Assembly: GCF_004339665.1 (NCBI RefSeq)
Contig: NZ_SMMU01000014.1
Span: 1-64,000 of the forward strand
Direction: 5' to 3'
DNA from: Azotobacter chroococcum
GTDB lineage: Bacteria > Pseudomonadota > Gammaproteobacteria > Pseudomonadales > Pseudomonadaceae
Length of the DNA: 64,000 nt
The translations under genes were made by a program, and so were the position numbers. The notes under the pieces are model-generated. The model was not told where the DNA came from. It made no database searches and saw nothing but the letters and a program-made list of their open reading frames with translations. This document shows positions 32,321 to 35,885 of the stretch, in pieces (the stretch's first letter is position 1; each line of letters begins with the position of its first letter).

Positions 32321-33910
<1,590 letters not shown>

Positions 33911-33947
33911 GGCTTAGTCCTGCGGGGGTTTCAGAGGGTAGTGGTTT

Positions 33948-34240
33948 TCAGCTGCACCACTTTTGTACCAACCTGGCCTTTTCGGGGGCTTTATCGAGCT
34001 TGTCGAACTCGTGCCAATCGGTACTGGAGTTGATTCAGCGGGCGTGGGTGGATAGTAACATTTGCACGCTATGCCCAAGTTGTGTCGCGATGAAAGCAGG
34101 GTTCATCCGGCCATGAGGCATAGGGTTGCGTAGGCCTGCCGGCAGTTGTACGGAGCCTGCAGTCCAGTTCGTCCAGACGCAGCAGCATGCTCTTCGCCGC
34201 GGCCGGTGTGGCGCGTACCTGGGAAACCGTCTCGGCTGAG
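33948..34240 (-). pseudogene. Decayed tyrosine integrase (C-terminal half)
   Basis: Reading right to left, three frames together spell a phage/island-type tyrosine recombinase end: SMLLRLDELDCRLR, then after a frameshift APYNCRQAYATLCLMAG, then after another frameshift at 34107-34108 MNPAFIATQLGHSVQMLLST followed by HAR, an internal TGA (34035-34037), and STDWHEFDKLDKAPEKARL up to TGA at 33948. In active relatives the box II segment reads RHTYA (here RQAYA) and the nucleophile segment reads STYARW (here STHAR-stop), so the catalytic His and Tyr are both lost. It is a dead relic of a mobile element. Confidence 0.8.
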
Positions 34241-34761
34241 GCTGCTTTCCGGTGGGATATGAACAGGAGAGGGAATGGCCGGTTACGCCGGCTAGTCGGG
34301 CAGTGTGTCGCCGCTGGATGCCTGCCAGCAGGATGGGGCTGATGAACCCCCAGACTTGCAGATTACTCAAACAGGCTGCGCGCCTTGCCGGGAACCGTGA
34401 AACCCGGCGTGACCATCTCTTGGCAATGGCCAGCTGACGCCGCTTGCATGCCGATCTGCCGACGGCATCTCCATAATACACAAATGATAATTATTATCAA
34501 TTGAGAAATTGCAAGACCGTCACTGCAGGGGAGTTCGGGTCAGCATCAGGAGAATATGGCCGGCTGCTCTTGGTAGGGCCTCGACCCTGTACGTGGGCGG
34601 TCTATTGCCACGCTGCCGGCTATTCCTGTTCCGTCGGCTTGCCAAGGGGCCCATGTCGAGCGCATGGAGCGCGGCATTTCCGGCGCCTTTGCTGGCCGCC
34701 AGGAGGCCGGTGGGCGGTGTGGCGCTGGGCGCCATCCGCCGTAGGGCTTTCCACTTCTGCA
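34241..34761. other. Gene-poor scar with orphan Fur-type site
   Basis: No supported protein gene. Frames are broken on both strands. The left part adjoins the integrase relic and may hold its eroded 5' region. The right part starts with an AT-rich promoter/operator and contains only unrecognised short frames (for example a six-codon frame from an ATG at about 34556, quickly closed by TAG). Confidence 0.5.
34473..34500 (-). promoter_or_regulatory. Fur-box-like operator overlapping a sigma-70 promoter
   Basis: TGATAAT (34485-34491), T, ATTATCA (34493-34499) is a perfect 7-1-7 inverted repeat, the core form of a Fur box. On the minus strand TTGATA (34500-34495), 16 bases, TATTAT (34478-34473) is a strong promoter overlapping the box, so iron-loaded Fur would block it. 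It points left into the integrase scar, where no intact gene is seen. Confidence 0.65.
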
Positions 34762-34983
34762 TTACCGATCATTCGTCGCCCTGGGTCTTGATCGATCCTT
34801 GGCCAAAGGCGCGCTGCCTGAAATGACTTGTCCCGTGTGCCTCTTCTGGATGGCTCTGGCTTTTTCCTTCCAGTAGGCATCGCCTTTGGGTTTGAACCGA
34901 CGAGGTTTCATCGCAATGCGGATCGCTATTGCCACAGCCGCCGTCACTGCAATCACTGTGGCGCTAATCCAAAGGGTGTCCAT
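34762..34983 (-). CDS. Small membrane-anchored basic protein, hypothetical
   Basis: A 73-residue frame with one N-terminal hydrophobic helix (LWISATVIAVTAAVAIAIRIA) followed by a strongly basic tail (KPRRFKPKGDAYWKEKARA). AAGGA lies about ten bases before ATG. The helix-plus-basic-tail organisation and start support a real small gene, but no family is recognised and it lies in a degraded region. Confidence 0.5.
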   Translation of the reverse strand: MDTLWISATVIAVTAAVAIAIRIAMKPRRFKPKGDAYWKEKARAIQKRHTGQVISGSAPLAKDRSRPRATNDR

Positions 34984-35171
34984 AGGGGGGTGTCCTTGCT
35001 AATCAAGCGGCTGGAGGGGGAATGCCTTGGCTCTGCTCGTCAAGGCGGAGTTCGACCCCGGATCTTTCTTGCCCGAGCTGTCGGCCTGCAGGTAGACGAG
35101 GGGCCATAAGGGGCGCGATCTTGCCAGTTTTTGACCTGGCCTGCCCAGCGCGGCGGCGCCCGGAGCCTGGC

Positions 35172-35885
35172 TCAGCCTGCATTCACCGGCCCCATTGGCT
35201 GAATCAGTCCGGCCCCCTCGTTGTGCACGTTCCCCACCGCCAGCCCGATCGGGTACCACTCGAACGCCTGCGTCGGTAGTCCCCGATGCAGGGCAATCTC
35301 CTCGGCCTGGGCCGGGGTCTGCTGCGGATCGATCCAGGCGCGGGCCATCTCGGCTCCCAGGACCAGCGGCTGGCGGTCGTGGATCGCGCTCATTCCCCCA
35401 TCGCTCATCCGGGTGATCAGCGCGAAGCCGTCGCCTTCACGCGCTGCTGCGCCCTCGTGCGGAAACCGGCCGATGGCCGGGAAGAACAGCGGTTCGCCGC
35501 TCTTCAGGCGAAAGAAGAAGGGCTGCTTGCGCCCCGTAGCGGCCGCATTCTGCTGCCATTCATACCAGCCATCGGCCGGCACCAGGGCGCGTCCGGATTT
35601 CCAGGCCTCCCGCCAGAAGCGGCTGCTCGCCAGCGTTTCTACCCGGGCATTGATCGCCGGCGGCCGCGCTCGTGGCCCCTGGGCCCAGGCCGGTGCGTAT
35701 CCCCAGGGGACGGGCTCCAGGCGCAACCCGTCGGCATCCGCGTGGATCAGCAGCACCCGCGTATGCGGGGCCACGTTGTAGCGGGCAATCGGCGCGGGTT
35801 CGAGGCCGGCCGCCAGCGGCAATCCGCTGTGCAGCGCCTGCAGGTAGTCGATCGCCGCCCGGTACTGCACGAATCTGCCGCACAT
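35172..35885 (-). CDS. SRAP-domain protein (YedK/HMCES-like)
   Basis: A 237-residue protein that would protect abasic sites in single-stranded DNA by covalent cross-linking. The essential catalytic Cys2 is in MCGRFVQ; the other family motifs are YNVAPHTRVL, INARVETLASSRFW, VPADGWYEWQ and the histidine motif MSAIHDRQPLVL. The protein must start at this Met because the N-terminal Cys is the active residue. It stands alone, with a 188-base featureless spacer downstream before the small membrane protein gene. Confidence 0.93.
   Translation of the reverse strand: MCGRFVQYRAAIDYLQALHSGLPLAAGLEPAPIARYNVAPHTRVLLIHADADGLRLEPVPWGYAPAWAQGPRARPPAINARVETLASSRFWREAWKSGRALVPADGWYEWQQNAAATGRKQPFFFRLKSGEPLFFPAIGRFPHEGAAAREGDGFALITRMSDGGMSAIHDRQPLVLGAEMARAWIDPQQTPAQAEEIALHRGLPTQAFEWYPIGLAVGNVHNEGAGLIQPMGPVNAG

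Follow-up and report, generated by a model that had tools for sequence, protein, structure and literature searches.

What does a Fur-type promoter control when no gene is visible behind it? In the window, the 64,000-nucleotide stretch of Azotobacter chroococcum DNA that was analysed as a whole, the initial annotation had described the promoter TTGATA-N16-TATTAT together with the palindrome TGATAAT-T-ATTATCA, had found no intact target gene and had proposed either an unannotated iron-regulated small RNA or the remains of a lost iron gene. A direct scan located promoter and palindrome where they had been described (Table 1); on the minus strand, TTGATA (34500-34495) is followed after 16 nt by TATTAT (34478-34473). 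The promoter had been called exactly overlapped by the palindrome, which is right for the -35 box and part of the spacer but not for the -10 box, which lies outside. TTGATA-N16-TATTAT was the sole promoter-like match in 33800-35200, and since 0.4 matches were expected from shuffles, it is by itself weak evidence. With up to three mismatches allowed, the palindrome was found in the window at 34485-34499 only (one report per strand; 0.06 in shuffles). In the 4.86-Mb genome, TGATAATNATTATCA with at most one mismatch occurred at four places, on both strands each, and the reversed-pattern control gave none. Two of the four are perfect 7-1-7 palindromes, the window site being one and the other lying within a PrrF match of 84.2 bits, slightly below the gathering score of 90; the two sites with one mismatch adjoin ECF sigma-factor genes, with a FecR gene after one of them. 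Because the other sites are found at a PrrF match and at ECF sigma-factor genes, the window palindrome is in company typical of a Fur box, and we regard it as a candidate Fur site. The PrrF-like match beneath the genome's only other perfect palindrome (L135, G000:C64) is a second, sub-threshold one, and the genome G002 likewise has a second PrrF-like match.

Table 1 Features of the Fur-type promoter, the RNA gene and the neighbouring genes (positions in the window)
Feature	Position	Strand	Evidence or remark
-35 box TTGATA	34495..34500	-	promoter scan; present too in the G001 and G003 orthologues
Fur-type 7-1-7 palindrome TGATAAT-T-ATTATCA	34485..34499	strand-neutral	palindrome scan of window and genome
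-10 box TATTAT	34473..34478	-	occupies -12 to -7 with the RNA start as +1
Structured RNA gene of ~196 nt, starting at 34466 (approximate 3' end)	34271..34466	-	covariance model match (184.5 bits) and conservation
Helix P2, 5' strand GCAGAT, pairs with 34358-34363	34454..34459	-	covariation in A1
Helix P2, 3' strand ATCTGC	34358..34363	-	covariation in A1
Hairpin P5 GCTGG-CAGGCAT-CCAGC	34313..34329	-	alignment, helix scan, covariation
Pseudoknot 5' strand GGCA, within the P5 loop	34319..34322	-	alignment and covariation
Pseudoknot 3' strand TGCC; this copy retains 4 of 5 family pairs	34299..34302	-	alignment and covariation
3' hairpin GCCGG-CGTAA-CCGGC, without a T-run after it	34278..34292	-	scan and covariation in A1
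23-residue C-terminal tail of a tyrosine-recombinase-like gene; bystander	34038..34106	-	tblastn
ABC-F-type ATPase gene, the first same-strand gene after the RNA, at a distance of 360 nt	32321..33910	-	Pfam ABC_tran/ABC_tran_Xtn, found in the orthologues too

When 57 genomes were searched at the DNA level with 33900-35200, a stretch often ending at 34465-34468 recurred several times per genome in one genus, Azotobacter. In most blastn matches (25 of 31), the start of the conserved block is no more than 2 nt away from the expected +1; the remaining six (the window and five copies, all with a Fur box) extend upstream into the promoter. In alignment A1, which comprises 31 copies, the block is 189-207 nt long and has 45 invariant columns. 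A covarying RNA of ~196 nt was identified at 34271-34466, inside the stretch 34200-34470 for which a search for conserved RNA structure had been suggested beforehand. Its first base, 34466, is six bases past the -10 box, so the promoter does have a target and the statement that no intact gene follows it had to be given up. The window copy scored 184.5, 176.6 and 57.3 bits with the covariance models R1, R2 and R3, all of which were built with this copy included (in R1 as one of 31 sequences). It has the features of the family, i.e. P2, P5, the loop pseudoknot and the core AAGYC...GGCGA, minus one base of P5 and one pair of the pseudoknot.

The RNA of the window is identical to its orthologues in G001 and G003 at 184/191 (96%) and 174/190 (92%) positions and the promoter at 34/34 (100%) and 27/34 (79%), compared with 97% and 90% for the opening 210 bases of the ATPase gene that follows. 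The upstream flank (34540-34761) amounted to 144/194 (74%) with G001 and 15/36 (42%) with G003, where it is mostly missing, and the downstream flank (34107-34239) to 72% and 58%. RNA and Fur-type promoter are conserved between species about as well as coding sequence and the flanks less, and a conserved RNA and promoter amid poorly conserved flanks is therefore a signature of selection on both. Farther upstream on the same strand lies a 73-codon ORF with a hydrophobic N-terminus (34762-34983; 84% nucleotide identity to G001 and 76% to G003), for which no Pfam match was found.

The consensus structure was assembled from an RNAalifold result and a helix scan and then counted on the 31 copies of A1, whose rows are related and not independent, as in all copy counts given here. 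In A1, 91.9% of the cells pair, compared with 84.8% in shuffles, and changes on both sides were found at 25 of 51 pairs, with 106 such cells against 34.1 in shuffles; the weakest measure, further pair types, was equalled by 7 of 500 shuffles. Sliding the partners against each other destroyed the pairing, a control that favours the structure because it was taken from the same alignment. A broader alignment of the core (A4; 40 of the 45 rows of the R2 match set, five extra Azotobacter copies being dropped) had 96.4% of its cells paired, compared with 82.9% after shuffling. In both alignments each of the five pairs that join the P5 loop to a stretch downstream of it, as a pseudoknot, has changed on its two sides; the pseudoknot covaries strongly and is the strongest item of the structure evidence. 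In the A. vinelandii copy (L024), whose pseudoknot is complete, GGCAT/ATGCC replaces the GGCAC/GTGCC of most Azotobacter copies, i.e. the change is paired. The base that is missing from P5 in the window is G in 29 and A in one of the other 30 rows of A1, and because this conserved base and one pseudoknot pair are lacking, the window copy may be slightly worn or starting to decay. The minimum free energy of the RNA was not below that of shuffled sequences (z = -0.11). No intrinsic terminator was found after the window RNA, so its 3' end is uncertain; a Rho-dependent ending or trimming is our guess. By eye, an internal loop in A1 in which an invariant CGG stretch (columns 15-20) stands opposite UUCGAGU (columns 122-129) looks like a tRNA T-loop facing the GG of a D-loop.

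These results bear on both proposals of the initial annotation. The small RNA starting near 34466 gains strong comparative support, down to the predicted start base, and would be the iron-regulated transcript that had been suspected; the remains of a lost iron gene are not supported, since what follows the promoter is an RNA that is conserved, covaries and has dozens of relatives. A protein gene had been tried as a candidate and was rejected: the 148-aa frame had no Pfam match, no frame is open through more than seven of the 31 copies and the lengths of the copies do not differ in steps of three. A tRNA or tmRNA was ruled out, as ARAGORN gave no match to the RNA. With Rfam 15, GOLLD and ROOL included, the window gave no match at the gathering score, and 33900-35200 had none even when E was allowed to reach 1. 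At 11 loci of relatives (L054-L056, L058-L060, L070, L076, L080, L081 and L085) no match at or above gathering fell on the RNA; in L055 the RNA is overlapped, on the opposite strand, by one bZIP match below threshold (E 0.71). Among open-licence PMC papers, no title or abstract opening describing this RNA was found. The family thus has no match in Rfam 15 and appears to be uncatalogued.

R1 matched five, 16, nine and five times in the four Azotobacter genomes G000, G001, G002 and G003; one of the five copies in G000 (C35) is weak and degenerate and was excluded from further use. Many of the Azotobacter copies stand in tandem and some in prophages, and two viral contigs (L035 and L044) have seven R1 copies each. 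Neighbours of the Azotobacter arrays include RecE-like and other exonuclease genes as well as antirepressor-like genes. In three Azotobacter genomes, arrays of six, three and two copies (L013, L020 and L022) lie between thrS/infC-like genes and a gene for an FAD-dependent oxidoreductase, as named by eye. Promoters were counted on 51 copies from the Azotobacter genomes and the viral contigs L035, L036 and L044. The motif TANNNT was found at -12 to -7 in 28 of the 51 and at any other offset in at most five. Not every copy has a recognisable promoter, because no TANNNT starts anywhere from -14 to -10 in 16 of the 51, including the Fur-box copy of L016. When up to one mismatch was tolerated, eight of the 51 copies had a Fur box in front of them. 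Three of the eight are at the ABC-F locus, namely the window copy and its orthologues in G001 and G003; the other five belong to arrays and include one copy each from the viral contigs L035 and L044. The three RNA copies at the ABC-F locus of A. beijerinckii all lack a Fur box, and so do seven relatives in other genera.

Outside Azotobacter the family is sparse. R1 matched 17 of 398 Pseudomonadaceae genomes, i.e. the four of Azotobacter, seven in other genera that were accepted and six that were set aside; the latter, six of the 13 matching genomes outside Azotobacter, were judged to be chance matches (E 7e-6 to 4e-4, core absent by eye). In five of the seven accepted relatives csrA adjoins the RNA, and Pfam CsrA was found in all four scanned; csrA alleles have been reported in phage genomes (PMC7366521). 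The surroundings of these five loci (L054, L055, L056, L058 and L059) are phage-like. Three of the five are near an exonuclease gene that is also present in the Azotobacter array locus L016, whose protein is 81% identical to that of L054. With R2, weak matches were obtained in two more of 293 genomes of the order and in one of 274 of the class, and the core proved to be shared. The core model R3 gave matches in ten of 248 genomes of the Pseudomonadaceae (the four of Azotobacter and six already found with R1). Under strict filters and apart from the source genome, it matched a single genome among 274 of the class, one that had supplied a row to the model, and no genome among 249 of the phylum. 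Because the searches of class and phylum with R3 were nearly empty, the RNA family is rare in bacterial genomes at large.

Pattern searches of viral contigs gave 4, 8, 26 and 19 stretches, in overlapping sets. In an earlier search, R1 had confirmed five of 16 stretches, the other 11 being without a match; another had given seven stretches, of which those from Fibrobacter and Gemmobacter had no R1 match, and L079 was left out of use. Out of 30 viral loci (L086-L115), ten were left out as near-duplicates or the same records by eye, and R2 matched all of the 20 that it was given (E ≤ 1.3e-4), a result that is not wholly independent because the loci had been picked by a core pattern that is also in the model. 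The neighbours of the RNA were assigned with PHROGs at seven viral loci, six of which are near early-type phage genes: RecT and exonuclease VIII (L099), a single-strand binding protein and a Holliday-junction resolvase (L102), an exonuclease and a resolvase (L090), a helicase (L093), a DnaD-like loader (L092) and a repressor (L086). At the seventh locus, L089, the only matches were to unknown proteins or, weakly, to ligase. In the near-identical stretches L096 and L105, a site resembling an intrinsic terminator lies directly 3' of the RNA, and the promoter scan by both gave no sigma-70-type match. Nucleotide searches of phage, plasmid and E. coli genomes had no match except one of 29 bases that was judged to be chance, and PADLOC returned one weak match only on ten neighbours. 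In L094, L100 and L103 the RNA is, by eye, directly beside a tRNA gene, and in L085 an Rfam tRNA (L085:1648-1721) abuts it. Judged by these sequences, the family is rare among bacteria and present in diverse viral contigs, and a phage origin is most likely.

At the host locus, the promoter had been thought to fire into an integrase scar. The fragment in question, which by eye we take to be that of an integrase and which had no Pfam match, lies past the 3' end of the RNA and is not part of it. The same integrase-like tail was seen upstream of the same ATPase gene in G002 (L019), also in L006, and in another genus (L005) beside what seems to be the same ATPase gene; the recurrence perhaps marks an old integration spot. 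The downstream ABC-F ATPase, presumably YbiT-like, is encoded on the same strand as the RNA in all four Azotobacter species, at a distance that ranges from ~330 to 1,500 nt.

We consider it likely that 34271-34466 (minus strand) works as an RNA gene in its own right that came from a phage, is repressed by Fur and induced by iron starvation, and probably acts in trans. The site, the position of the RNA behind the promoter, its conservation, its covariation and its phage distribution were established by computation. When iron is sufficient, Fur-Fe2+ would sit on the palindrome over the -35 box and block RNA polymerase; under iron starvation the promoter would be released and fire at 34466 to give an RNA of ~196 nt. 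This RNA is predicted to fold into a long P2/P3 stem with two inner hairpins, the pseudoknot of the P5 loop with downstream sequence and the 3' hairpin, and would act in trans, its fold binding a conserved partner, instead of relying solely on a short antisense seed. Phages encode it mainly in early-type regions with genes for recombination, replication and immunity; in Azotobacter prophages it would have been amplified to tandem arrays, and at least three host species would have kept a single copy under Fur control upstream of an ABC-F ATPase gene. Fur binding, transcription, action in trans and a benefit to the host are what we infer. A wider claim, to which we give slightly less than an even chance, is that an uncatalogued family of pseudoknotted RNAs, encoded by diverse phages from many metagenomes, acts in trans on a conserved host machine, that Azotobacter phages expanded it to arrays of seven copies, some of them tied to Fur, and that the host kept one such copy as an iron-starvation RNA.

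The RNA could instead be a cis-acting leader, antitermination- or riboswitch-like, for the gene behind it, i.e. the ABC-F ATPase gene in the host and early genes in phages, which we regard as rather unlikely. Such a leader would account for the constant order of RNA and ABC-F gene in the four species, for the promoter-proximal position of the RNA and for the finding that an SD sequence with an ORF starts within 52 nt of the RNA 3' end at 11 of 28 other loci from phages or genomes (the doubtful start of L054 excluded; three of the 11 are near-identical). HK022 put RNAs, which act in antitermination, are likewise promoter-proximal structured RNAs of a phage early region, a likeness by description; the RNA described here differs from them by its tandem arrays and by copies with a terminator-like site right after the RNA. 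Action in trans is favoured over a leader because the copies stand in tandem and more than half have a -10-like box of their own, because the genes behind the RNA, judged by eye from their N-termini, look unrelated between phages, and because of the terminator-like site straight behind the RNA in L096 and L105, which fits a stand-alone RNA gene. In addition, the distance to the ABC-F gene varies and the intervening sequence is poorly conserved, which also argues against a leader.

It is improbable that RNA and Fur promoter are functionless leftovers of a decaying prophage in the host. The integrase tail nearby, the other copies within prophages or viral contigs, the damage to P5 and pseudoknot in the window copy and the degenerate copy C35 elsewhere in the genome would all agree with such debris. 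Against it, the conservation of RNA and promoter is close to that of the first part of the ABC-F gene and does not extend to the flanks, and the pseudoknot of the A. vinelandii copy has changed as a pair.

A second antisense sRNA of the ArrF/PrrF type (RF00444) is very improbable. ArrF is an iron-responsive sRNA of A. vinelandii (PMC8401924), and it shares with the window RNA the logic of a short RNA behind a Fur-box promoter; moreover, the genome's only other perfect palindrome is in a PrrF-like match. However, RF00444 had no match in the window at gathering or in 33900-35200 at E ≤ 1, which contradicts a paralogue, while PrrF was found elsewhere in all four Azotobacter genomes; the ~196-nt RNA of the window has a different, pseudoknotted fold, a phage distribution and tandem arrays.

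CsrA-titrating sRNAs carry repeated GGA motifs. An RNA that titrates CsrA/RsmA, to which the csrA gene beside five of the seven accepted relatives would point, can be dismissed with similar confidence, since GGA is depleted in the family: the 31 copies average 1.3 each where base shuffles give 3.6, and the window copy has no GGA at all. A. vinelandii has CsrA-titrating sRNAs, RsmZ1-7 and RsmY1-2 (PMC7366521); the window RNA is like them a multicopy small RNA in Azotobacter with csrA beside its phage-type relatives, but differs from them in its depletion of GGA.

Only as a structured RNA of unknown function in phages and prophages does the RNA resemble GOLLD and ROOL, which occur in phages and prophages, often near tRNAs, ROOL having pseudoknots (PMC12286853). 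In contrast to these, it has no Rfam match, is much smaller than GOLLD and has copies that are predicted to be iron-controlled.

In sum, an apparently empty Fur promoter has become a specific candidate for an RNA gene, and it leads to a family of RNAs, unmatched in Rfam 15, which phages carry and sometimes multiply. A viral RNA gene appears to have been kept by the host under iron control. If this is true, it would link phage biology with the iron status of the host, and Azotobacter, which serves as a model of nitrogen fixation and has iron-rich nitrogenases, would gain another candidate for an iron-responsive RNA.
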